64,000 nt of DNA from Chelatococcus sp. HY11. GTDB lineage: Bacteria > Pseudomonadota > Alphaproteobacteria > Rhizobiales > Beijerinckiaceae. Position 1 is the stretch's first letter; every line of letters begins with the position of its first letter. Below the pieces are notes generated by a model that ran no database searches, was not told the origin of the DNA, and worked only from the letters and a program-made list of their open reading frames with translations. Positions 32,212 to 43,996 of the stretch are shown piece after piece. A program made the position numbers and the translations under genes. The DNA is taken from contig NZ_JAHBRX010000001.1 in the NCBI RefSeq assembly GCF_018398335.1, forward strand, positions 4,394,001-4,458,000, in the 5' to 3' direction.

Positions 32212-35001
32212 ATGAAGGTCGTTGTCGTCGAATCTCCGGCCAAAGCCAAGACAATCAATAAGTATCTGGGTAGTGGCTACGAGGTTCTGGCATCCTTTGG
32301 GCATATCCGCGATTTGCCCGCCAAGGACGGTTCGGTTGATCCTGACGCCGATTTCGCGATGGTATGGGAGCTCGAGGATCGCGGCGCCAAGCGCATGTCG
32401 GAGATCGTGCGCGCCGTTAAGGGCGCTGACAAGCTGATACTCGCCACCGACCCCGATCGCGAAGGCGAGGCTATTTCCTGGCACGTGGTGGAGGCGCTCG
32501 GCGAAAAAAAGGCTCTGCGTGGCATTCCGGTCGAACGCGTGACCTTCAACGCGATCACCAAGGATGCTGTTCTGGACGCGATGGCGCATCCCCGGCAAAT
32601 CGACCAGGCGCTCGTCGACGCCTATCTCGCGCGCCGGGCGCTCGACTATCTCGTCGGCTTTACCCTGTCACCAGTGCTCTGGCGCAAGCTGCCGGGCGCC
32701 CGTTCCGCCGGTCGGGTCCAATCAGTCGCGCTCAGGCTGGTCTGTGACCGCGAGCGCGAGATCGAAACCTTCGTTCCACGCGAGTATTGGTCCCTTATCG
32801 CCCTGCTTGCGACGACGCATGGAGCGACCTTCGAGGCGCGCCTTGTGGGTGCCGATGGGCAGAAGATAAGCCGGCTCGATATCGGCAAGGGCGAAGAAGC
32901 CGCAGCCTTCAAGCGTGATCTCGAAGCGGCGACGTTCCAGGTCGTCAGCGTGGAGGCGAAGCCCGCCAAGCGCCATCCGCAGCCGCCCTTCACTACCTCC
33001 ACCCTGCAACAGGAGGCCTCGCGAAAGCTGGGGCTTGCACCGGCGCGGACCATGCAGATCGCGCAGAAGCTGTACGAGGGTGTCGAAATCGGCGGCGAAA
33101 CGGTCGGTCTCATCACCTATATGCGAACCGATGGCGTCGATATGGCGCCAGAAGCCATCACATCCGCCCGCAGCGTAATCGGCAAAGAATTTGGCGATCG
33201 CTATGTGCCGCCGCAGCCCCGCAAGTACAGCGTGAAGGCCAAGAATGCGCAGGAAGCGCACGAGGCCGTGCGTCCCACCGATCTTTCGCGCCTGCCGGCC
33301 GATGTGCTGCGTTATCTCGATGCAGACCAAGCCCGCCTCTATGAGCTGATCTGGACGCGCACGATCGCCAGCCAGATGGAGTCGGCGACTTTCGAACGCA
33401 CAACCGTTGATATCGCAGCGCGTGTCGGCTCGCGCGTGCTGGATCTGCGCGCGACCGGCCAGGTCGTGGTCTTTGATGGCTTCCTGAAGCTCTATCAAGA
33501 GGGCAAGGACGACGAGGCCGACGAGGACGGCGGCCGACTGCCGGCGATGAAAGCCGGTGAAAATCTCGAAAAGCGCGAGATCCGCGCCACTCAGCATTTC
33601 ACGGAGCCGCCGCCGCGCTTCACCGAGGCGAGCCTCGTCAAGCGAATGGAAGAGCTCGGCATCGGCCGGCCCTCCACCTATGCCGCCGTGCTCGCGGTGC
33701 TGCGCGACCGCGAATATGTCAGCCTCGACAAGAAGCGCCTCGTGCCCGACGACAAGGGGCGCATCGTCACCGCCTTCCTCGAAAGCTTCTTCCGCCGTTA
33801 TGTGGAGTACGACTTCACCGCGGATCTTGAGGAGAAGCTCGACAAGGTCTCCAACCACGAGATCGACTGGAAGGCGGTGCTCCGGGATTTCTGGCGCGAC
33901 TTCATCGTGGCCGTGGATGAGACCAAGAGCCTGCGCATGACGGAGGTGCTCGACGCCCTCAATGAGGAACTCGGGCCGCATATTTTCCCGCCACGCGCCG
34001 ACGGCGGCGATCCACGCCTGTGCCCCTCCTGCGGAGTGGGCCGGCTGTCGCTCAAGCTTGGCAAGTTCGGCTCGTTCATTGGTTGCTCGAACTACCCGGA
34101 ATGTCGCTATACCCGCCAGCTGGCCGCAGGTGGCAACGGCGACGCAGAGGGTGCCGGCGAGGCCGGCGGGGGCCCGAAGGTGCTCGGCCGCGATCCGGCC
34201 ACTGACCTTGAAGTCACCCTACGTGATGGCCGCTATGGTCCTTACGTGCAGCTGGGGGAGGGCGAAAAGCCCAAGCGTCAGACCCTTCCGAAGGGGACCC
34301 CGCCGGATGTGGTGAGCCTCGAGATGGCGCTCAAGCTCCTGTCGCTGCCGCGACAAGTCGCGATACATCCGGAGACGGGCAAGCCGATCCTCGCCAATAT
34401 CGGCCGTTTCGGCCCCTATGTGCAGCACGAGAAGACCTACGCCAATATCGGCCGGGATGATGACGTGCTGGAAATTGGCGCGAACCGCGCGATCGATCTC
34501 ATCGTCGCGAAGGAGCAGGGCGGCGGCCGCAGGGGCTCCAACGATCCCGGCCGTCCGCTGGGCGATGATCCGGAGAGTGGGAAGCCGGTGGTCGTCAAGG
34601 CTGGCCGCTATGGGCCGTATGTGACGGATGGCGAGACGAATGCGACCTTGCCGAAAGGCACCGAGAGCGACGCCGTGACGCTCCAGGAGGCCCTCGCTTT
34701 GCTTAAGGCCCGCCGGGAGGCTGGCGGGAGCAAGAAGGGTGGGCGCAAGGTTGCGGCCAAGAAGCCGGCCGCCAAGAAGCCAGCCGCCAAGGTGGCGAAA
34801 TCGGGGGCGGACAAGGCCTCGTCCAAGAAAGCAGCCTCCACGAAGGCAGCTTCCACCAAGGCAGCTTCCACGAAGGCCGGGGCGAAAAAGTCTGTTGCCC
34901 AGAAGGCTGGCGCGGCGGCGGCAGACGACATGTCAACGACGGATGAGCCTGCTGCGCCGCCTGCCAAGTCCGCGGCTGCCAAGTCCGCAGCTGGTGGCTG
35001 A
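32212..35001 (+). CDS. topA: DNA topoisomerase I (type IA)
   Basis: Relaxes negatively supercoiled DNA. The protein has 929 residues. The Toprim domain (1-115) opens MKVVVVESPAKAKTINKYLG with the catalytic Glu7 and carries the acidic cluster Asp80-Pro-Asp82-Arg-Glu84. The active-site tyrosine is Tyr303 in GLITYMRTDG. One C4 zinc finger is present at Cys604, Cys607, Cys625 and Cys631. It is followed by three Topo-I C-terminal repeats containing LRDGRYGPYVQLG, IGRFGPYVQH and AGRYGPYVTDG. The last 100 residues are an Ala-Lys-rich disordered tail with short repeats, common in alphaproteobacterial TopA and thought to bind DNA non-specifically. Confidence 0.97.
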   Translation: MKVVVVESPAKAKTINKYLGSGYEVLASFGHIRDLPAKDGSVDPDADFAMVWELEDRGAKRMSEIVRAVKGADKLILATDPDREGEAISWHVVEALGEKKALRGIPVERVTFNAITKDAVLDAMAHPRQIDQALVDAYLARRALDYLVGFTLSPVLWRKLPGARSAGRVQSVALRLVCDREREIETFVPREYWSLIALLATTHGATFEARLVGADGQKISRLDIGKGEEAAAFKRDLEAATFQVVSVEAKPAKRHPQPPFTTSTLQQEASRKLGLAPARTMQIAQKLYEGVEIGGETVGLITYMRTDGVDMAPEAITSARSVIGKEFGDRYVPPQPRKYSVKAKNAQEAHEAVRPTDLSRLPADVLRYLDADQARLYELIWTRTIASQMESATFERTTVDIAARVGSRVLDLRATGQVVVFDGFLKLYQEGKDDEADEDGGRLPAMKAGENLEKREIRATQHFTEPPPRFTEASLVKRMEELGIGRPSTYAAVLAVLRDREYVSLDKKRLVPDDKGRIVTAFLESFFRRYVEYDFTADLEEKLDKVSNHEIDWKAVLRDFWRDFIVAVDETKSLRMTEVLDALNEELGPHIFPPRADGGDPRLCPSCGVGRLSLKLGKFGSFIGCSNYPECRYTRQLAAGGNGDAEGAGEAGGGPKVLGRDPATDLEVTLRDGRYGPYVQLGEGEKPKRQTLPKGTPPDVVSLEMALKLLSLPRQVAIHPETGKPILANIGRFGPYVQHEKTYANIGRDDDVLEIGANRAIDLIVAKEQGGGRRGSNDPGRPLGDDPESGKPVVVKAGRYGPYVTDGETNATLPKGTESDAVTLQEALALLKARREAGGSKKGGRKVAAKKPAAKKPAAKVAKSGADKASSKKAASTKAASTKAASTKAGAKKSVAQKAGAAAADDMSTTDEPAAPPAKSAAAKSAAGG
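34831..34875 (+). repeat. 15-bp tandem repeat in the topA tail (three copies)
   Basis: GCAGCYTCCACSAAG is repeated at 34831-34845, 34846-34860 and 34861-34875, encoding AAST(K) units. It lies in the Lys/Ala-rich C-terminal tail, where copy number may vary between strains. Confidence 0.85.
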
Positions 35002-35135
35002 CCGTCGTTCCAGAATTTCAGGGAGGCGCGATGTTTGGCTGGGTCTCCCCCGACGCTGGCAGAAGTCCCGTCAAGCTTTACCGCCGCGGTTCTGCTAACC
35101 CTTGGCCGGCGGTGATGCCGTCGGGATGAAAACAT

Positions 35136-35160
35136 GGAACTTCCCGAGGTTCGGCTCGTT
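35136..35160 (+). promoter_or_regulatory. EcfG-type promoter of csbD
   Basis: GGAAC-N16-CGTT, exact match to the general stress response promoter of Alphaproteobacteria. The -10 element ends 32 bp before the csbD ATG. Confidence 0.88.
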
Positions 35161-35192
35161 CTTCTCGTAGAGATTACTATGGAGGAGCCAGT

Positions 35193-35393
35193 ATGAACTG
35201 GGATCGTGTTGAAGGTAACTGGAAGCAGTTTAAGGGAAATTTGCAGCAGCAGTGGGGTAAGCTCACTAACGACGATCTGGATGTCGTGCAGGGCAAGCGC
35301 ACGGAACTCGCCGGGAAGCTGCAGGAGCGCTATGGCGTGGCGAAGGATGAAGCCGAGCGGCAGATCGACGACTGGCTCAAGAAAACCCACTAG
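35193..35393 (+). CDS. CsbD-family stress protein
   Basis: Small hydrophilic protein of 66 residues: MNWDRVEGNWKQFKGNLQQQWGKLTNDDLDVVQGKRTELAGKLQERYG and so on, the full CsbD domain. These proteins accumulate in stress; their biochemical role is unknown. An EcfG-type promoter directly upstream predicts control by the general stress sigma factor encoded about 6 kb downstream. The gene is monocistronic, with a strong hairpin after it. Confidence 0.94.
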   Translation: MNWDRVEGNWKQFKGNLQQQWGKLTNDDLDVVQGKRTELAGKLQERYGVAKDEAERQIDDWLKKTH

Positions 35394-35445
35394 CGCTATT
35401 TCCTGCGGGTCGTTCGGATCTTCAGAATTTTGATGCGTTGAATAG

Positions 35446-35488
35446 CGCCCAGCCAATCGAGCGTCAGATCGGAGCGATTGGCTGGGCG
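35446..35488 (+). terminator. Strong hairpin after csbD
   Basis: CGCCCAGCCAATCG (35446-35459) pairs perfectly with CGATTGGCTGGGCG (35475-35488) around 15 nt. There is no T-run, so it may be an mRNA-stabilising structure instead of an efficient terminator. Confidence 0.6.
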
Positions 35489-35608
35489 ATATTTGGTAAT
35501 GGGCGTGGCCCCGCAGTCTTTTCCATTGCAGACGGACCTTTAGATATGAAGGGAGCGTCAAGGTTTTTGGCGCTGCGACAAGCGAGACGATCGCCAAGTG
35601 GAGCGATA

Positions 35609-35633
35609 GGAAGCTTTCGATTTTCACTACGTT
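35609..35633 (+). promoter_or_regulatory. Near-consensus EcfG-type promoter upstream of the DUF883 gene
   Basis: GGAAG-N16-CGTT, one mismatch in the -35 element. The -10 ends 67 bp before the ATG at 35701. The family downstream is often stress-induced, which supports the call, but it remains a candidate. Confidence 0.55.
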
Positions 35634-35700
35634 TGCGCTTCGGCGTTGATCTCGGGTGCCTTGCGAATAAGAATGTGAGTTCTTGCTAAGGAGTAGCTTA

Positions 35701-36048
35701 ATGGCCACCAAGCCGAATGAAGGGGAGTATGGCGCCGAGATCGCCAAGCTTCGCGAGGATATCACGCAGTTGTCCAACAGCATCGCGCAACTGGTGCAGC
35801 GTGAGGCGGACAACGCGGCGGCGCAGCTGAGGACCTCCGTTGGCCGGGCTGCTGATGCGGTCGCAGGCCGGGTCAATTCGGTCGCTGACGATGTTGCCCG
35901 GACTGGACGTCAAATGGCGTCGGACGCGCAACACGGCGTTCGGAATGCCGCGACGGAGCTTGAATCCAATATCGAGCGCAATCCCCTGACGGCTGTGCTG
36001 ATCGCCGGTGGCATCGGCCTGGTGTTGGGCCTCCTGAGCCGCAAGTAA
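35701..36048 (+). CDS. DUF883 (ElaB/YgaM/YqjD)-family inner-membrane-anchored protein
   Basis: Protein of 115 residues. Residues 1-90 are charged and helical, likely coiled coil (EIAKLREDITQLSNSIAQLVQREADNAAAQ). A single C-terminal membrane segment follows (NPLTAVLIAGGIGLVLGLLSRK), as in YqjD, which binds ribosomes at the membrane in E. coli. AAGGAG at 35688-35693 precedes the ATG by 7 nt. The next gene starts directly at the following base, so the two form an operon, possibly under the stress sigma factor. Confidence 0.88.
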   Translation: MATKPNEGEYGAEIAKLREDITQLSNSIAQLVQREADNAAAQLRTSVGRAADAVAGRVNSVADDVARTGRQMASDAQHGVRNAATELESNIERNPLTAVLIAGGIGLVLGLLSRK

Positions 36049-36549
36049 ATGATCAGGCTCCTCAGGCAATTGGCTGCCGGAGCGATCGCGCCGATGCAGG
36101 AGGCCGCCCGCCGCACGGTCATCGATGTCGTGCTGCTGAGTGCGGTCGGACTGCTTGTGGTGATCGCGCTGATCTTCGGCGCTATCTCGGCGACCCATTG
36201 GCTCAGCCTGCGTTATGGTTTCATCCAGGCGACCGCGATCATGGCGGCCGGTTTTTTTGTGGCGGCCCTCGTCGTGCTCGCTGTCCGGATAGCCATCAAT
36301 CGCCGCTCAACCGCGTCAAGGACGGCCTCTTCACGCGGCGTGAGGATGGAGGCGGCTGCTCAGGTTGGGCTCGCTGGCGCGTCGGCTTCCGGGGCAAGCC
36401 AGGGGCAACCAAAGAGCGGCATGACGGCCGAGGAGCTTGCACTCCTTGGCACCCAGGACATCGTCAAGTCACTGACCCCATTCCAGCTGACACTGGTGGC
36501 CGCCTTGGCTGGTTTTGTCGGCGGACGTCTTCTCGAGAAGAAGAAGTAG
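36049..36549 (+). CDS. Small membrane protein, phage-holin-like (YqjE/DUF1469-type)
   Basis: Protein of 166 residues with two central membrane segments, about 24-50 (VIDVVLLSAVGLLVVIALIFGAI) and 58-82 (FIQATAIMAAGFFVAALVVLAVRIAI), and a third hydrophobic stretch near the C-terminus (FQLTLVAALAGFVGGRLLEKKK). It follows the DUF883 gene with no gap. Such pairs (YqjD/YqjE) recur in proteobacteria. The family call rests on architecture and context more than on sequence identity. Confidence 0.68.
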   Translation: MIRLLRQLAAGAIAPMQEAARRTVIDVVLLSAVGLLVVIALIFGAISATHWLSLRYGFIQATAIMAAGFFVAALVVLAVRIAINRRSTASRTASSRGVRMEAAAQVGLAGASASGASQGQPKSGMTAEELALLGTQDIVKSLTPFQLTLVAALAGFVGGRLLEKKK

Positions 36550-36721
36550 TTCCGGGCTAACCGTTCGGGATCTTGCCTGTGAGATCCCCGGGGACTGAAG
36601 CAGCGGATGCTGGGCAAGGCTTGAGTTCGTTCGGGCCTATTCCAGCGAAGCATGCCAGCGAACCTCCACATTCAGCCATCGGCTACGGGTGCTCCCAGTC
36701 CACGACTCACGATACGAACTT

Positions 36722-36746
36722 CGCCCCCGGACGTAATCCGGGGGCG
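36722..36746. terminator. Bidirectional hairpin between the membrane protein gene and phyR
   Basis: CGCCCCCGGA (36722-36731) pairs with TCCGGGGGCG (36737-36746) around 5 nt. It lies between convergent genes. No strong T-run follows in either direction. Confidence 0.55.
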
Positions 36747-36795
36747 GTGTTCAATTACCGAGGTTCCGAAACGGAAGAGACCCTAGACGCATTGA

Positions 36796-37626
36796 TCAGC
36801 TGGCCGCCGCGGCGTCAGCGCGGTGGGACCGCCGGTCGAAGAAGAGCGCCTGGCTGATGATCGCCTTTACGGCATCCGCGTTGAACGGCTTGGTAACAAG
36901 AAATGTCGGCTCGGGGCGCAGGCCGGTCAGGAGCCGCTCGGGGTAAGCCGTGATAAAGATCACGGGTATCTCGATTTCCGAGAGGATGTCGTTTACGGCG
37001 TCGATGCCCGAGCTGCCATCGGCAAGCTGGATATCGGCAAGCACCAATCCCGGCTTTTGTGTCGCGATGGCGCCGACGGCTTCGCGATGTGTACGCGCGA
37101 TATTTGTCACGCGATGGCCGAGGCTTTCCACAAGGGCCTCCAGATCCATCGCGATGATGGGTTCGTCCTCAATAATAAGGATGTCCGTGGCCAGCTGATC
37201 GGAAATGTCCTTGCTCGCCTGCCCGAGAAGTTCTGCGACTTCATCCTGGCTGCAATCGAGGGTTTCGGCGATACGCTGAACGGAAAAGCCTTCCACTGCC
37301 TGGAGGAGAAAAGCGAGACGGGGGCGCGGAGGAAGCGCCTCCAGTCTGCGCTGGACGTTGGCCTCGGCACCCATGGCGGGTTCTATGTCCATGGGCGAAA
37401 CGGGATTGGCCGCTTCATTGAGTGGCACCGAGTTCCAGACACGCAACAGAATACGGAAGAGAGCGACGCGAAGATCTTGCGCATCGTCGATTTCCGCCGG
37501 ATCCGCCATGATGGCTTCCAGCGTGGCAACGGCATAGGCATCACCACCACTTTGGGTGCCGGATAAGGCACGCGCGAATCGGCGCAGATAGGGCAGATGT
37601 GGTGCAATTGCCTGAGAGAGGGACAT
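36796..37626 (-). CDS. phyR: General stress response regulator PhyR (sigma-like domain + receiver)
   Basis: Anti-anti-sigma factor of 276 residues from ATG 37626. Residues 1-140 mimic an ECF sigma factor (two helical regions, including LPPRPRLAFLLQAVEGFSVQRIAETLDCSQDEV). Residues about 148-265 are a receiver domain with acidic Glu153-Asp154, phosphoacceptor Asp198 in LVLADIQLADGSSG, the Thr in FITAYPERLL and Lys246. When phosphorylated, PhyR binds NepR and frees EcfG. It is divergent from nepR, with back-to-back EcfG promoters in the gap, giving positive feedback. Confidence 0.96.
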   Translation of the reverse strand: MSLSQAIAPHLPYLRRFARALSGTQSGGDAYAVATLEAIMADPAEIDDAQDLRVALFRILLRVWNSVPLNEAANPVSPMDIEPAMGAEANVQRRLEALPPRPRLAFLLQAVEGFSVQRIAETLDCSQDEVAELLGQASKDISDQLATDILIIEDEPIIAMDLEALVESLGHRVTNIARTHREAVGAIATQKPGLVLADIQLADGSSGIDAVNDILSEIEIPVIFITAYPERLLTGLRPEPTFLVTKPFNADAVKAIISQALFFDRRSHRADAAAAS

Positions 37627-37743
37627 GAACGAACCCTTTTTCCTTGCGTTTAGACTTATCATGAGTCACGACACGTAAAATCAGTGTAACGGCAATGCTT
37701 GTGCTGGCGCGAGGGGGAAGTGTGACGCGCGATCCAAATTAAG

Positions 37744-37768
37744 AACGCTGCTTTCATTGATAAGTTCC
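37744..37768 (-). promoter_or_regulatory. EcfG-type promoter of phyR
   Basis: On the minus strand GGAAC-N16-CGTT, exact. The -10 element (37747-37744) is 117 bp upstream of the phyR ATG. Its -35 lies 8 bp from the -35 of the divergent nepR promoter. Confidence 0.88.
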
Positions 37769-37776
37769 GGCACTCT

Positions 37777-37801
37777 GGAACCTTTGCGACGCCGTTGCGT
37801 T
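37777..37801 (+). promoter_or_regulatory. EcfG-type promoter of nepR
   Basis: GGAAC-N16-CGTT, exact. The -10 element ends 67 bp upstream of the nepR ATG. It lies back to back with the phyR promoter. Confidence 0.88.
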
Positions 37802-37868
37802 TAATCCGGCACCAGGGGTTATACCCGGTTTGGTGAGAGGGTGGTTTTGATATGCGGTGGAGGTGCTG

Positions 37869-38108
37869 ATGGACCGGGAGGAACGTCCGCGAGTTGTGCG
37901 GACTGTGCCGGCTGATAGGAGCGCACCGGGGCATTCAGCGAACACGACCACTCCGGCTGAACGTGGTGTCGACGGCGAGAAGCACTCAGTACAAGATCAG
38001 ATTGGGCTTCAATTGCGGTCTATGTATGATGACGTATTGAACGAAGCCACGCCGGAGCGTTTCTTAAAGCTTCTTCAAGATCTGGATGAGAAAACGAAGT
38101 CCGAATGA
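37869..38108 (+). CDS. nepR: Anti-sigma factor NepR
   Basis: Small anti-sigma factor of 79 residues that holds EcfG and is released by phosphorylated PhyR. The conserved core is HSVQDQIGLQLRSMYDDVLNEATPERFLKLLQDLDEK near the C-terminus. The N-terminal half is disordered-looking and charged, as in other NepR proteins. GGAGG (37859-37863) precedes the ATG by 5 nt. An exact EcfG promoter precedes the gene. A second NepR-like gene is encoded 3.1 kb downstream. Confidence 0.93.
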   Translation: MDREERPRVVRTVPADRSAPGHSANTTTPAERGVDGEKHSVQDQIGLQLRSMYDDVLNEATPERFLKLLQDLDEKTKSE

Positions 38109-38382
38109 TATCGTTAGCTGATATCTATGCATATCGACGTGCGTGATATTGTCGACTTGGATTTTCGCATTCATGTCCATAGAAGGAATTATGTCGTCGG
38201 GGTTTAACATGTGCGGCTGACACTGATGGCGGCGCGGGGAGCCTGGATATTCGAAGGACATAGGCTCGCATGCGCCGACGCCGCTTCATCCATAAGTACC
38301 GGGCAGCTTGGCCGGCCGACCGCCAAGCGGGACCCGGGTCCGTGCGCCATGGATGCGGCTTCGCGACTTGTCGAGGCCCACG

Positions 38383-40158
38383 ATGACATTTGGCCGTAGC
38401 CTTCGCAGCAGGATTGTCGTTACCCTCGGCTTTGTTCTCCTACCTGCTGTTGTTCTCGCCTTTGTGTGGATCTTCACGAATGTGAACGCCCTTCGCGATG
38501 CGAAGGTGGCTAACGCGACGCGCGCGGCGTCCGCCATGGCTCTCCAGGTCAACGAGTCGTTGCGGGATATGATCCTCGCAAGCGCCGGCCTCGATGCCAA
38601 CGCAGGGACGACCAAGTCCACGACGGCGTGCAATCGCGAGCTCGGATCGATCGTCGGCGCACAACAGAGTTACGTCGGTGGAGCCGTTGTGGACCACGGG
38701 CGCATAGCCTGCGCGATCGGCGTGCCGGAGGATGCCTTTGCACGCCTCGCTTCGCCTGAACGTCTGGCGACAATCACCGCGGAACTGTCGACTGGAGCTC
38801 CCCTTGTGCTGGAGCGGCTCGACAATACCGACGCTGAAAAGATTCTGACGGATAATGGTCTGGCTATCCCGACCGACGGTTATCTCCTGGCGGCCGTGCC
38901 GAGCAGCCTGAGCAAGGATGGTATGCTGCTCGTGCTCCTGACCAGAGAGCGCATTATCGCCGAGCTCAGCGTACCTTTCATGGACATCGCCCATGGCGCT
39001 GCGCTGTTCGGGGCGGATGGAACGATCCTGGCGGAATGGCGGTCGGACAGCCTGCCCGAACGCTGGCTGCCAGCCATGCCGTTCGACGGCGCGACCGCCG
39101 CGGGGGTCTCGATCTCCGGCCATAGTTTTCGCTATTTCAAACTGCCGCTAGCGCGTACAGGCGTCGCGCTGCTGGTGGGATATCCCGAAAGCGCGTTTTT
39201 CGCGGCTGAGCAGAACATTCTTTGGGTGACGCTGTTGCCGCCGGTTCTCATGATGGGCGCCGCGGGAGTTGGCGCGCTGCTGGCCGTGGATCGCCTTGTG
39301 ATCCAATGGATCGTCTATCTGCAGCGTGTCACACGGGTCTACGGCAGCGGGCGCTATTCGGTTCGTGCCCTGCGCCTGAGCAGGGCGCCACGCGAACTTG
39401 GTGAGCTTGGCTATGCCTTCAACCATATGGCCGACAACATAGCCCATCACGCCACCGAACTGAGTTCGGCGATCGATGACAAGGAGCGATTGCTGCGGGA
39501 GCTACACCATCGGGTGAAGAACAACTTCCAGGTCATCGTCTCGCTTCTGAGTCTGCATAAGCAAAGTCTTCCGGACAAGGAGCGCGATGAGGTCCGCTTC
39601 ATAGAAGATCACGTGAACGCCATGGCCGTGGCTTACCGTGTCGGTTACAGCTATGGCGAGATGGGTGACGCACCGGTCGCGGAGCTTCTTTACGATATTG
39701 TCGATGGGTTGCGGCGCACGGCGGATCTAGCGCCAGACAACGTCGTGGTCGAGGTTCCGCCCGTCACGACCCGGATTGATCTCGATCGGGCGATTGGGAT
39801 CGGTTTGTATCTCGCGGCTATGCTGCCTGCTTATCTGGACACGGTCCGCGCGGACGCGGCTCACTCGTCCTCGCAGATGAAGGTGAGGGTAAGCGCCTTT
39901 GTTGAAGGGGAGACATTGCGGCTTGCCGTTTCCGTCCGGCCAGCGACGACGATTGTTCAACTGTCTCATCTGCGCGGGCGTCTTACACGCGCCTATATCC
40001 GGCAGCTGTCCGCCCAAGAGGTGCCTGCGGATGATTCAACGGAAAGGACTATCCTCATTCCGTTGGATGGGATCGACGCGATGGGGCTTCCTTCGGGGGA
40101 CAGGCCTGCGAAAAGCTTTCGCATCAGCGGCAGGCATACCGGATCACCCGCCGGATGA
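38383..40158 (+). CDS. HisKA_2-type sensor kinase of the stress locus with degenerate ATPase domain (PhyP-like)
   Basis: Membrane sensor of 591 residues. A membrane segment at about 10-32 and another at about 279-303 bracket a periplasmic sensor domain. A HAMP-like linker (about 305-365) leads to the HisKA_2 domain with LLRELHHRVKNNFQVIVSLLSLH; the phosphoacceptor is His376 (HRVKN). The ATPase domain (about 430-560) lacks the N-box pattern (here IDLDRAIGIGLYLAAMLPAYLDTV) and the DxGxG box (here LAVSVRPATTIVQLSHLRGRL). It therefore probably cannot autophosphorylate. In Sphingomonas a similar protein, PhyP, acts as a phosphatase and negative regulator of PhyR. The gene lies between two nepR genes, which supports that role. 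Confidence 0.85.
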   Translation: MTFGRSLRSRIVVTLGFVLLPAVVLAFVWIFTNVNALRDAKVANATRAASAMALQVNESLRDMILASAGLDANAGTTKSTTACNRELGSIVGAQQSYVGGAVVDHGRIACAIGVPEDAFARLASPERLATITAELSTGAPLVLERLDNTDAEKILTDNGLAIPTDGYLLAAVPSSLSKDGMLLVLLTRERIIAELSVPFMDIAHGAALFGADGTILAEWRSDSLPERWLPAMPFDGATAAGVSISGHSFRYFKLPLARTGVALLVGYPESAFFAAEQNILWVTLLPPVLMMGAAGVGALLAVDRLVIQWIVYLQRVTRVYGSGRYSVRALRLSRAPRELGELGYAFNHMADNIAHHATELSSAIDDKERLLRELHHRVKNNFQVIVSLLSLHKQSLPDKERDEVRFIEDHVNAMAVAYRVGYSYGEMGDAPVAELLYDIVDGLRRTADLAPDNVVVEVPPVTTRIDLDRAIGIGLYLAAMLPAYLDTVRADAAHSSSQMKVRVSAFVEGETLRLAVSVRPATTIVQLSHLRGRLTRAYIRQLSAQEVPADDSTERTILIPLDGIDAMGLPSGDRPAKSFRISGRHTGSPAG

Positions 40159-40167
40159 TCTCCAGGT

Positions 40168-40205
40168 GGTCCTCAACAATGGGGATGGTCCTCAACAATG
40201 GGGAT
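40168..40205 (+). repeat. 19-bp perfect tandem duplication after the kinase gene
   Basis: GGTCCTCAACAATGGGGAT occurs at 40168-40186 and again at 40187-40205 with no spacer. The rest of the gap to 40430 shows no gene. Confidence 0.9.
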
Positions 40206-40430
40206 GCTCTTGCGAGGTAGCTTGGCGCGCGGACGCAAGACGGGATCCGGAACGCCCTCCGCTCAGACTGACGTCCCCAAGCGTTGAAGGAGGTTGATCC
40301 AGATCCCGTTTCTGAAGCATCGAGGTGAAAAGTGCGTTACACCTTTCCATTAAATCCAATGCAATCAGATATATAGCGCTACGTCTCGACTTTCATGGAG
40401 CGTTCGCCGCACGAGGCGACTTCCCGACGC

Positions 40431-40607
40431 TTAAAGGGGCGACTGACGCCCGCGCACGATGCTGACAATCGCGGAAATGATGAAGAGCACGATTGCGACG
40501 TAGAAAATGATCTGTGCGATCGAAATAGCCGTTCCGGCAATTCCGCCGAAACCAAGTACCGCGGCAATAAGCGCGATAACTAGAAAAGTTATTGCCCAGC
40601 TGATCAT
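40431..40607 (-). CDS. DUF1328/UPF0391 small membrane protein
   Basis: A 58-residue protein with two membrane segments: [22 protein letters not shown] then [27 protein letters not shown]. This is the standard length and pattern of the DUF1328 (YtjA) family. AAAGGGA lies 6 nt before the ATG (complement of 40605-40607). An exact EcfG promoter on the same strand sits about 118 bp upstream, so it is a predicted member of the stress regulon. Function is unknown. Confidence 0.92.
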
Positions 40608-40724
40608 GGTATGTCCCTTTATTGTAGAAAGTTTACGTCCTTCTGCCAGCGCTCGCGCAGTTGCGTTTTGGGGACGGCGGCCCTAGCGTCGATAGTCGCC
40701 GTACCGAACGGGCGTTGTAAAACA

Positions 40725-40749
40725 AACGTCTTCCCACATATGAAGTTCC
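40725..40749 (-). promoter_or_regulatory. EcfG-type promoter of the DUF1328 gene
   Basis: Minus strand GGAAC-N16-CGTT, exact, with the -10 118 bp upstream of the ATG. Confidence 0.85.
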
Positions 40750-41098
40750 CAAATATGGGAAATGGAAGATCCTCTAGTAATCAGGTCGGGTCTTGCGCGT
40801 CTTACATGCGTACAGCAGCGACATCAGTTTAGATCCCGCTCGGCAGTTTGCGATTTATGTTCGCCGTGGGGATAATACCCGTCCGCCTGTTTGCTATCCG
40901 CAGGAGCCTGTCAAGGAGGCAGGGAGATCCTATCAAGGGCGTGATTTGAAATTGTCTCTGCCGCCGGGGCTTGGCGACACAATCGGCGACACAAATCGGC
41001 AAGGCAAAGATGGAAGGAAACCCTAAAATTCCTGTTTCCGTCTAACTACTTGGTGATGCGGGCGGTGTAATTTACCCACCATTGCCTGGATGAGTAGT

Positions 41099-41123
41099 GG
41101 AACCATTGGCAAAGCTTCGCGTT
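41099..41123 (+). promoter_or_regulatory. EcfG-type promoter of nepR2-ecfG
   Basis: GGAAC-N16-CGTT, exact, ending 95 bp before the nepR2 ATG. It implies that EcfG activates its own operon. Confidence 0.87.
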
Positions 41124-41218
41124 CTTGAAAAGCGAAGATTATGTGGCCTGGGTCTCGCGCCCGGGTTTCAGCTCAGCTTCTCTCTCGCGAGGGCTGAATG
41201 TGAGTGGAGTGAAGCAAT

Positions 41219-41515
41219 ATGGGGGCGCGTCGCTCTGCAGATGAAGAGACGCAGGAGTTGCATCCCGGTACCCGTATCAACGGCGGCGTGAAACAAGGGG
41301 GTTCCGCATTTGAGGGCGAACGTGGCGTGCATATGACTCATCCAGCAACGGCGGTGGATGGAATGGGTGCCCAGCTTTCTCCCGCCTTGCGAGGGGTGAG
41401 CGCCCAATTTGCCGAACGGCTCACGGACCTCTATCGAACAACGCTTGAGCAGCCTGTGCCAGATCGCTTTCTTGAGCTGTTGGACAAGCTCGACCGCAGG
41501 GAAGGGCAGGGATGA
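41219..41515 (+). CDS. Second NepR-like anti-sigma factor (upstream of ecfG)
   Basis: Protein of 98 residues. Its C-terminal half, LRGVSAQFAERLTDLYRTTLEQPVPDRFLELLDKLDRREGQG, fits the NepR core (the PERF/PDRF-x-LLxxLD element aligns with the first NepR). The first 55 residues are variable and charged. GGAG precedes the ATG by 9 nt. Its stop overlaps the ecfG start (ATGA), the classical nepR-ecfG arrangement, so it may be the main EcfG antagonist, with the other copy next to phyR in an additional role. Confidence 0.87.
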   Translation: MGARRSADEETQELHPGTRINGGVKQGGSAFEGERGVHMTHPATAVDGMGAQLSPALRGVSAQFAERLTDLYRTTLEQPVPDRFLELLDKLDRREGQG

Positions 41516-42078
41516 TGGAGGCAAGTGCGAACGTTAAGCAGGATCTGCTGAAAGCCATCCCCAATCTGCGTGCTTTCGCCATATCGCTGTGCGGAAATCC
41601 CGAGCGAGCCGATGACCTCGTGCAGGAAACGCTGATCCGCGCCTGGGCCAATCTCTCGTCCTTCACCGAAGGCACGAATATGGTGGCGTGGCTTTATACG
41701 ATCCTGCGCAATGTCTTCTATTCGGAGTATCGCAAGCGCAGCCGGGAGGTCGAGGATGTGGAAGGGCGCATCGCCGCCACGCAGGCCTCTCCGCCACCAC
41801 AAGACGGGCACATGAACCTGCGGGATTTCCGTCAGGCGCTTGATGAGTTGCCTGACGATCAGCGCGAGGCGCTCATCCTTGTGGGTGGCGCTGGCTTATC
41901 CTATGAAGAGGCGGCAGAAATCTGCGGTTGCGCGCTTGGCACCATCAAGAGCCGGGTAAACCGTGCGCGCACTCGGCTCGCGCATACGCTGGCCGTGCAA
42001 TCCGCTCACGAATTTGGCCTTGAGCCCGAATGGCAGGCCATCCTCGACCGTTCGGGGTCCTCGCGCGCCAGCCGTTAA
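41512..42078 (+). CDS. ecfG: General stress sigma factor EcfG (ECF15 group)
   Basis: ECF sigma factor of 188 residues. Region 2 spans about 15-80 (LRAFAISLCGNPERADDLVQETLIRAWANLSSFTEGTNMVAWLYTILRNVFYSEYRKR) and region 4 about 110-165 (LRDFRQALDELPDDQREALILVGGAGLSYEEAAEICGCALGTIKSRVNRARTRL). The short acidic linker between them and the neighbouring nepR, phyR and kinase genes identify EcfG. The ATG overlaps the nepR2 stop codon; a second ATG follows directly. A perfect terminator ends the operon. Confidence 0.95.
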   Translation: MMEASANVKQDLLKAIPNLRAFAISLCGNPERADDLVQETLIRAWANLSSFTEGTNMVAWLYTILRNVFYSEYRKRSREVEDVEGRIAATQASPPPQDGHMNLRDFRQALDELPDDQREALILVGGAGLSYEEAAEICGCALGTIKSRVNRARTRLAHTLAVQSAHEFGLEPEWQAILDRSGSSRASR

Positions 42079-42101
42079 GCCTTTGGAAAACTGATCGAAG
42101 C

Positions 42102-42141
42102 AGGATGCGACGCGTGTTTACGCGTCGCATCCTCTGTTTTT
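42102..42141 (+). terminator. Rho-independent terminator of the nepR2-ecfG operon
   Basis: AGGATGCGACGCG (42102-42114) pairs perfectly with CGCGTCGCATCCT (42121-42133) around 6 nt, followed by five T at 42137-42141. Confidence 0.92.
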
Positions 42142-42218
42142 CGTTATGTGGACTTGCGGATCAAGACCGCCGTGGCGGCCGCACTTCAGGCGTCAGCACT
42201 TGACAACGGGCAAGACGT

Positions 42219-42262
42219 GGCGCATCTCGTGAGAATAAACGTTCATTCTCACGAGATGCGCC
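42219..42262. promoter_or_regulatory. 44-bp inverted repeat in front of the TetR gene (probable TetR operator)
   Basis: 18-bp arms (42219-42236 and 42245-42262) are perfect complements; the centre is AACGTT with one mismatched flanking pair. It ends one base before the TTG start of the TetR gene. A TetR site of this kind is expected, but the arms are much longer than a normal operator, and in RNA they would form a large hairpin. Confidence 0.75.
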
Positions 42263-42263
42263 T

Positions 42264-42920
42264 TTGTCCGAGGTTCAATCAGATCATAGCGATCGGCGCG
42301 AACGCATCCTGGATGCCGCGGAACGCTCCTTCACGCAGGCGGGGTTCCATCGCACCACCGTGCAGGATGTTGCACGCGAAGCGAGTATGAGTCCTGGAAA
42401 CCTCTATCGTTATTTTCCGTCCAAGGACGCTATCGTAACGGGCCTTGTCGAGCGCGACCGTACGATGCTGCGCGAAGATTTCGAAAGCTTTGCCCAGACA
42501 GAACGGCTTGAGGTCGTCTTGCGGGCTTTGGCGCGCAAGCATTTCGAGGAAGCGCCCCGTTCCAAGGCCGTGCTCTGTGTGCAGATCTGGGCGGAGGCCA
42601 CCGTCAACCCGGCAATCGCAGCGGCCAATGCGACGCTCGATAGCGATCTCATGGATGGGATGCAGCGTCTGATCGAAGCCGGTCGGGAGCGGGGCGAAGT
42701 GGCCGAAGGCGTTGACGCCGCGGCGACCGCGCGGCTCATCATGAGCATGAGCAGTGGCCTGTTTATGCGCCGCGCCCTTTTTCCAGATTTCGATGCGGAC
42801 AACGAAATCCAAGCTCTTCTGTGTGTCATCGGCGGTGTCTTGCGAGGCGACATATCGCAAGGCGGGATTTCGCATCTCCCGTCCGAGGACATTCTTCTGG
42901 CCACTGAGACAGATCGATGA
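42264..42920 (+). CDS. TetR-family transcriptional regulator
   Basis: Repressor of 218 residues. The N-terminal helix-turn-helix is RERILDAAERSFTQAGFHRTTVQDVAREASMSPGNLYRYFPSKDAIVTGLVERDR, about 12-65; the rest is the ligand-binding domain. The only in-frame start that keeps this domain is the TTG at 42264, with no ribosome binding site and immediately behind the inverted repeat. It overlaps the adaptor gene by 4 bp, so it probably represses the efflux operon of which it is the first gene. Confidence 0.88.
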   Translation: MSEVQSDHSDRRERILDAAERSFTQAGFHRTTVQDVAREASMSPGNLYRYFPSKDAIVTGLVERDRTMLREDFESFAQTERLEVVLRALARKHFEEAPRSKAVLCVQIWAEATVNPAIAAANATLDSDLMDGMQRLIEAGRERGEVAEGVDAAATARLIMSMSSGLFMRRALFPDFDADNEIQALLCVIGGVLRGDISQGGISHLPSEDILLATETDR

Positions 42921-43996
42921 AAGCAAGTCACATAATCGCCGTGGCCGTTATTCTCGGAGCCGGAGCCTGGATTGGTTCCGGGGTCATCGGTCGTGAGCAT
43001 CCCCAGGGCGAGAAAACGGACGCGGCAGCCGCCAAAGCCGCGCCGCGCTTTCGCGTCTCTGTGGTTGAGACCCGCGAGGAGCAGCATGCGCGTCGCATCG
43101 TGCTGTCCGGACGCACCGAGGCTGATCGCCGCGTGACCGTCGCGGCCCGCACCAATGGCACGGTCATCGACCTCAAGGTGCGCCGCGGTTCCGTCGTCAA
43201 GACGGGCGACGTCATGGCCGTGCTCTCGGATGAGGCGCGCGAGGCGATGGTCGCTCAGGCGAGTGCCAGGCTGGAACAGCGCCGTGCCGAACTGAAAGCC
43301 AGGCTCACGCTCATCGAGCAGGGCAATATGGCCTCGCTGCAGAAGCCCTCGCTGCAGGCGGAGCTGCGCGCGGCCGAGGCGAGCCTCGCCCAGGCCGAGG
43401 CGGAGCGCGACAAGAGCAAGGTGCGCGCGCCGATCGACGGCATCGTGAATGCGGTGCCGATCGAGAACGGGCAGGCGTTGCAGGTGGGCGCGGCGGTTGC
43501 CGATGTGGTCTCCATGGATCCCATGCTGGCGGTCGTCGAGGTTGCGGAACGCCAGCTGGCGGGCATCAAGGTCGGCGACAAGGCCACTGTGCGCCTGATT
43601 TCCGGTGGTGAAGTGGAGGGCAAGGTGCGGTTTGTCTCCGCGACCGCGAGCCCGCAGACCCGCACCTACAGGGTCGATGTGGAACTCGCCAATCCCAAAG
43701 GCGCCATTCCCGACGGAGTGACCTGCGAGGTGATGCTCTCTCTCGCACCCGTGCCCGCGACGAAGGTGCCGCGGTCTGCCCTGACGTTTTCAAATGAAGG
43801 GCGCCTTGGTGTTCGCTCGGTTGCGAAAGATGGCGTGGTCGCCTTTTCGGAGGTCGTCATCATCCAGGACGGTCGCGATCAGGTCTGGCTAAAGGGTGTG
43901 CCGGACGGTGCGGCGGTCATCGTGCAGGGCCAGGACTTCGTGAAGGAAGGCGAGATCGTGGAGACCGTTCAGGCTGGAACGCTCGCCAAGATGTAG
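42917..43996 (+). CDS. RND efflux periplasmic adaptor (HlyD/MFP family)
   Basis: Membrane fusion protein of 359 residues. An N-terminal membrane anchor or signal (IIAVAVILGAGAWIGSGVIG) is followed by the barrel-sandwich hybrid domain (VSGRTEADRRVTVAARTNGTVIDLKVRRGSVVKTGDVMAVL near 65), a helical hairpin (ASARLEQRRAELKARLTLIEQGNMASLQKPSLQAELRAAEASLAQAEAERDKSKVRAPIDGIV) and beta-barrel domains. It bridges the RND pump to an outer membrane channel, which is not encoded in the window. ATG overlaps the TetR stop codon. Confidence 0.93.
   Translation: MKASHIIAVAVILGAGAWIGSGVIGREHPQGEKTDAAAAKAAPRFRVSVVETREEQHARRIVLSGRTEADRRVTVAARTNGTVIDLKVRRGSVVKTGDVMAVLSDEAREAMVAQASARLEQRRAELKARLTLIEQGNMASLQKPSLQAELRAAEASLAQAEAERDKSKVRAPIDGIVNAVPIENGQALQVGAAVADVVSMDPMLAVVEVAERQLAGIKVGDKATVRLISGGEVEGKVRFVSATASPQTRTYRVDVELANPKGAIPDGVTCEVMLSLAPVPATKVPRSALTFSNEGRLGVRSVAKDGVVAFSEVVIIQDGRDQVWLKGVPDGAAVIVQGQDFVKEGEIVETVQAGTLAKM

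Follow-up and report, generated by a model that had tools for sequence, protein, structure and literature searches.

What can a histidine kinase homologue do at a stress locus once its ATP-binding motifs are gone? The window analyzed here, a 64-kb stretch of DNA from Chelatococcus sp. HY11 (NZ_JAHBRX010000001.1, positions 4,394,001 to 4,458,000), encodes such a protein of 591 amino acids (38383-40158) beside phyR. A first-pass annotation of this DNA called it a sensor kinase without recognizable ATP-binding motifs and "probably a PhyR phosphatase"; the open reading frame and both sequence stretches that it quoted are where it put them. The sequence of the protein and its likeness to Sphingomonas melonis PhyT indicate that it is probably a PhyT-type pseudokinase, which would serve both as a phosphotransferase to PhyR and as a PhyR holder, without using ATP.

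The Pfam HisKA_2 match covers residues 373-445 (whole-protein E = 2.5e-13) and contains the intact HRVKN motif, starting at His376, that had been annotated; HWE_HK is sub-threshold. Two hydrophobic stretches (about residues 12-34 and 279-303, by eye) are followed by a HAMP region at 313-353. The annotated loss of the N-box and DxGxG boxes is confirmed by alignment. Residues 465-488 (IDLDRAIGIGLYLAAMLPAYLDTV) align with the N-box helix, in which Glu, Asn and His are replaced by Ala479, Ala483 and Thr487, and residues 514-530 (LAVSVRPATTIVQLSHL) align with the G1 strand, where DxGxG is missing. The G2 pattern is also missing, and the intervening loop is shorter than in most intact relatives in the alignment of 58 homologues. 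A Pfam scan of the protein up to E = 1 gives no HATPase family match. Autophosphorylation is unlikely, as first proposed, because the N-box Asn, DxGxG and G2 are gone.

Profile comparison with hhalign was used to trace the origin of the degenerate catalytic and ATP-binding (pseudo-CA) domain. The nine-member clade of the window protein against nine intact CA domains gave 71%. A two-step route gave 98% for this clade against 40 other degenerate relatives and 98% for those relatives against the intact set, and a reversed-sequence control gave 0.4% and 1.2%. On this profile evidence the pseudo-CA domain is a HATPase by descent, remote and degenerate. Pairwise ratios of nonsynonymous to synonymous substitution (dN/dS) against three congeners are 0.013-0.018 in the dimerization and histidine phosphotransfer (DHp) domain and 0.095-0.200 in the pseudo-CA domain, so that purifying selection is about 7 to 11 times weaker on the latter in the three pairs, with some dS values high and near saturation. 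Low dN/dS in both domains indicates that the gene is not decaying and that purifying selection acts on it within the genus, where it is present in all four genomes searched, that of the window among them. The nearest named relative is from C. asaccharovorans DSM 6462 (79% identity over residues 1-585).

Homologues were chosen by similarity to the window protein; four of 62 were dropped and 58 were aligned. The N-box Asn is missing from 49 of these proteins, all of which keep the H, R, K and N of HRxKN, and the H, R and N of HRxxN are invariant in all 58. Conservation of HRxKN in every Asn-less homologue fits phospho-chemistry better than a mere scaffold. Flanks of about 1.5 kb (6 kb for L035) were fetched, and a stress neighbor was counted when NepR or EcfG was detected by tblastn at E up to 1e-3 or PhyR at 40% identity or more. 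Such a neighbor accompanies 48/49 Asn-less homologues and 1/9 Asn-bearing ones. The sole Asn-less protein without one (L013) lies near a contig end, the counted neighbor of L028 rests on a 39.5% EcfG match, and the PhyR matches of two Asn-bearing rows (L031, 27%; L063, 33%) were left out of the PhyR count. A single branch with support of 100/99 splits Asn-bearing from Asn-less proteins in a tree that has no outgroup, includes the N-box trait's own columns and carries a program warning about long branches possibly joined falsely, including that of L012 to the nine Asn-bearing rows. Because the Asn-bearing homologues form a single branch, the contrast of 48/49 with 1/9 represents one evolutionary split and is given without a p-value. 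When relatives were scanned with Pfam, the eight degenerate ones gave no HATPase match up to E = 0.01, and the two intact ones both had a match. Judged from the aligned sequences, homologues at this locus in the order have usually lost the N-box Asn, and the loss is not special to the window protein. Since this loss is usual and the sequence features of PhyT are present, the window protein joins an already known kind. Six homologues (L009, L022, L038, L042, L045 and L046) have one stop reported inside the matched stretch; the frame of L038 is open for 587 codons, so its reported stop is its own end.

The phosphatase proposal goes back to older literature on PhyP. When S. melonis PhyP was re-tested in 2018, it showed no activity as a phosphatase toward PhyR~P in vitro, and the protein now bears the name PhyT (PMC5898713), which corrects the label. 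In that species phosphotransfer runs from SdrG~P through the PhyT histidine to PhyR and requires His341, PhyT binds PhyR in a two-hybrid assay and restrains the stress response, and a phosphatase or reverse-transfer mode in vivo is left possible (PMC5898713). PhyT of S. melonis Fr1 and the window protein, compared by published description, share a phyR-locus gene, an HRxxN DHp and a degenerate ATPase domain, and the membrane anchor and putative periplasmic sensor of PhyT may have counterparts in the window protein (PMC5898713). They differ in the donor: SdrG, which carries a PFxFATG(G/Y) motif, is a free receiver (PMC5964349), whereas the sole FATGUY receiver found in the window's genome sits in a phytochrome hybrid. 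Caulobacter crescentus PhyK, a phosphotransfer protein between MrrA~P and PhyR whose ATP-binding residues are dispensable in vivo, likewise has HisKA_2, together with a putative periplasmic sensing domain that may have a counterpart in the window protein (PMC5964349); the window protein differs from it in being degenerate in the ATP domain. Brucella ovis PhyK is described as soluble and cytoplasmic (PMC12354254), unlike the probable membrane protein of the window, and the Brucella studies speak against a uniform picture in that they reportedly saw no direct influence of phyK on transcription of EcfG (PMC12354254). RsiC (S. meliloti), Bab1_1673 (Brucella abortus), RpaI_4707 (R. palustris) and LovK (C. 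crescentus) are classed as PhyP-type in PMC5898713 and are likened to the window protein through that listing. The NCBIfam PhyK model NF051872 matches the window protein over residues 18-518 (E = 1.6e-41) with 142.5 bits, under its 750-bit cut-off. It was rejected as a discriminator between PhyT and PhyK, since it matches 10/10 relatives tested, two intact ones included, and gives its top score to intact L030 (216 bits). Spo0B and ChpT act in other pathways than the window protein and are not known to have a periplasmic sensor. Both are kinase-derived dimeric histidine phosphotransferases with a degenerated catalytic domain, cited as precedents in PMC5898713, and the same principle would apply here.

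In the proposed mechanism, the protein would sit in the inner membrane and dimerize through its intact DHp. His376 would take a phosphoryl group from the Asp of a phosphorylated receiver, not from ATP, and pass it to PhyR. Unphosphorylated PhyR would be held on the protein and shielded from premature phosphorylation by kinases, and PhyR~P would bind NepR and free EcfG. We infer PhyR binding and phosphotransfer by the window protein from S. melonis PhyT. With no free SdrG found, the donor is the least certain step; the best candidate comes from a bacteriophytochrome HWE hybrid kinase encoded by this genome, whose FATGUY receiver could fill the role.

Several points weigh against a PhyT assignment or limit it. 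The assignment builds on features observed here (anatomy, ATP-motif loss, conserved HRxKN, stress locus and purifying selection), and S. melonis PhyT, C. crescentus PhyK and S. meliloti RsiC lie outside the tree. L030, in genome G182, is an Asn-bearing HisKA_2 protein of a stress locus, beside EcfG, with an intact N-box and HATPase_c. An AlphaFold model of residues 335-591, computed from two sequences (the window protein and L035), reached a pLDDT of 47.4 and a pTM of 0.31, with only the order of helices and strands readable; it was too poor for a fold search, and the profile comparison was used in its place. A free FATGUY (SdrG/MrrA-type) receiver was not found by motif and profile searches of the window's genome (G000; 99.4% complete, 6 contigs). 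The searches there gave four HRxxN kinases: the window protein, a REC-HisKA_2 protein (L001), a PAS-PAS-HWE protein and a PAS-GAF-PHY-HWE-REC bacteriophytochrome (L003). One of seven F-x-FATG matches in this genome falls within a receiver, the phytochrome tail, which has the sequence PFVFATGYG, retains Asp and Lys as judged by eye and is fused to the HWE kinase.

The gap extends through the family. A FATGUY profile was built from 20 receivers with F-x-FATG among 32 receivers read and run on the 17 family genomes, of 99 searched, with a PhyT-type match below E = 1e-30; seven further family genomes with weaker Asn-less homologues (L053-L057, L062 and L064) were left out of this census. In 16/17 genomes less than 2.5 kb separates the PhyT-type match from the PhyR receiver; in G241 the two are on different contigs. 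Scores separate into an upper band, with E no higher than 4e-27, and a lower band that starts at 3.7e-18 and runs to weaker values. The latter includes the PhyR receivers of all 17 genomes (3.7e-18 to 2.0e-15; read in 16 and assigned by position in G255) together with other receivers of similar score. Eight genomes have an upper-band receiver, fused in G000, G211, G275, G220 and G256 and free in G218, G252 and G255, the last judged from upstream sequence; G211 has a second, of 206 residues with FCTG. The strict F-x-FATG motif occurs in 4/17 (G000, G211, G218 and G255). The upper band is empty in 9/17 (G202, G214, G215, G241, G248, G251, G279, G282 and G285), among them the congeners G248 and G279; G285 is ambiguous in having a 196-residue receiver that reads VIFATGYD at a PhyR-like score. 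Because nine PhyT-bearing genomes are without a FATGUY-band receiver, the standard SdrG relay cannot be general, so PhyT in these genomes needs another donor or acts mainly as a PhyR holder or drain.

A receiver census with PF00072 gave at least 52 matches in G000, at least 51 in G248 and at least 57 in G279. G248 encodes a 125-residue single-domain receiver (L130 418-792, - strand) adjacent to an HWE kinase; it has IIITSG instead of FATGUY and is a possible alternative phosphate carrier. G215 has a 156-residue receiver with FVSG. The gene for another single-domain receiver, in G279 (L198 1271-1764, - strand), also adjoins an HWE kinase; it is broken across two frames and carries PFALASAY, which could reflect either an SdrG-like gene in decay or a fault of the assembly. 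The search for HWE kinases covered both families in G000 only, and an HWE kinase in G279 escaped the HisKA_2 search. CckA and CpdR, receivers that engage ChpT, another DHp-type phosphotransferase, also carry FATGUY-like motifs (PMC9981736), and by this analogy it is plausible that a fused FATGUY receiver could feed PhyT. No report of a fused or phytochrome receiver feeding PhyT is among the literature matches listed, whose coverage excludes most subscription journals.

On this basis a rewired relay is conceivable, and we put it forward tentatively. The free SdrG/MrrA would be gone, with the FATGUY receiver left only in the tail of a kinase that senses red light, and light input would pass from phytochrome-REC~P through PhyT-His376 to PhyR; congeners without that receiver would retain PhyT purely to hold or drain PhyR. 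The gene upstream of the bacteriophytochrome looks like a heme oxygenase (by eye).

A PhyT-type role combining phosphotransfer and PhyR holding has to be weighed against three alternatives. The protein could act in the genus without any forward relay, by sequestering PhyR or by drawing phosphate from PhyR~P to His376, to be lost to another receiver or to water. Its retention in the nine genomes of the empty upper band, congeners included, and the binding of PhyR and restraint of the response by S. melonis PhyT (PMC5898713) argue for such a holder or drain, but we consider it unlikely as the whole function: the invariance of H, R and N in 58/58 homologues is beyond a pure holder's needs, and other receivers could be donors, for instance those of the CckA and CpdR type or the REC domain of L001. 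The PhyR phosphatase of the first-pass annotation is improbable, given that PhyP was inactive toward PhyR~P in vitro and that a figure legend states that C. crescentus LovK was not a phosphatase for PhyR (PMC5964349). In its favor are the historical assignment of PhyP, the in vivo activity left possible by PMC5898713 and the title, cited in PMC4814048, that makes S. meliloti RsiC a putative bifunctional kinase/phosphatase. Kinase activity through a non-standard ATP site is very hard to reconcile with the lost N-box Asn, DxGxG and G2 pattern and with the confinement of Pfam HATPase matches to intact relatives, even though the pseudo-CA domain is recognizably HATPase-related and under purifying selection.

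The surroundings of the gene (Table 1) bear out the annotated placement of a PhyP-type relative at a phyR-nepR-ecfG locus: PhyR, two NepR proteins and an EcfG-type sigma factor, which we take to be EcfG from its locus, are all encoded less than 2 kb from the phyT-type gene, on either side. Of the two nepR genes, only the second shares bases with the sigma factor gene. Methylobacterium and Sinorhizobium are also known to have NepR paralogues (PMC4814048). A PDB sequence search with the 591-residue protein gave two weak matches alone, 4r39 (E = 0.17) and 4r3a (E = 0.47), both "Blue-light-activated histidine kinase 2", and an Rfam scan of window positions 34500-43500 at gathering thresholds gave no match.

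Table 1. Coordinates of the phyT-type gene, its domains and associated features (window positions unless a contig is named).
Feature	Position	Strand	Evidence and remarks
phyT-type gene	38383..40158	+	591 aa, membrane-anchored HisKA_2 pseudokinase (probable); ATG at 38383
HAMP region, residues 313-353	39319..39441	+	Pfam HAMP E 1.4e-5
DHp / HisKA_2 domain, residues about 365-445	39475..39717	+	Pfam HisKA_2 at 373-445
His376 codon, presumed phospho-accepting His of HRxxN	39508..39510	+	H, R, N in 58/58 aligned homologues
Pseudo-catalytic (degenerate HATPase) domain, residues about 446-562	39718..40068	+	Alignment, hhalign with reversed control, no Pfam HATPase
N-box helix without Asn, residues 465-488	39775..39846	+	Alignment
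G1 strand without DxGxG, residues 514-530	39922..39972	+	Translation, alignment
PhyR, 288 aa, with receiver domain	36796..37662	-	PhyR_sigma2 4.2e-24, PhyR_sigma-like 7.9e-17, Response_reg 5e-13, PRK09191 7.9e-106
NepR anti-sigma factor, first copy, start codon uncertain	37857..38108	+	Pfam NepR 7.6e-14
Second NepR-like gene (nepR2), start codon uncertain	41219..41515	+	Pfam NepR 1.1e-9; overlaps sigma factor gene
EcfG-type sigma factor	41512..42078	+	Sigma70_r2 2.4e-16, Sigma70_r4_2 3.3e-16, PhyR_sigma2 4.5e-12
GGAAC-N16-CGTT, EcfG-type promoter candidate for phyR	37744..37768	-	Pattern search
GGAAC-N16-CGTT, EcfG-type promoter candidate for nepR and phyT	37777..37801	+	Pattern search
GGAAC-N16-CGTT upstream of nepR2 and sigma factor gene	41099..41123	+	Pattern search
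Bacteriophytochrome PAS_2-GAF-PHY-HWE_HK-REC (L003)	G000:C1 about 64245-66863 (L201 6246-8864)		Domain search

GGAAC-N16-CGTT sites are known as EcfG promoters. Five occur in the window against 0.48 expected, a number reached in 0/100 shuffles, and two of them form a back-to-back pair in the space between phyR and nepR. A looser pattern, GGAAC-N15-19-GTT, gave 10 matches against 5.1 expected and was dropped for the strict form. The strict pattern is absent from 16 kb around the phytochrome gene. A small hydrophobic open reading frame at 40440-40600 (- strand), presumably a DUF1328 protein from the way it reads, lies downstream of a site at 40725-40749 and is a possible stress-regulon member; another small open reading frame at 35136-35393 (+ strand), whose product we take to be CsbD-like, has a site ahead of it.

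The PhyT kind of protein is already known, and what stands out here is the partner gap. As judged from the genome sequences, the unexpected part is that a PhyT-type protein with an invariant histidine appears to persist where the known kind of donor is not found. In Sphingomonas the relay and holder roles of PhyT are hard to separate because both operate. Genomes that bear PhyT and have no detectable SdrG-like receiver are a natural separation of the two, and since that receiver is undetected, the standard SdrG relay cannot be what keeps His376 invariant in them. The count of 9/17, one ambiguous, makes the question of relay versus holder directly testable.
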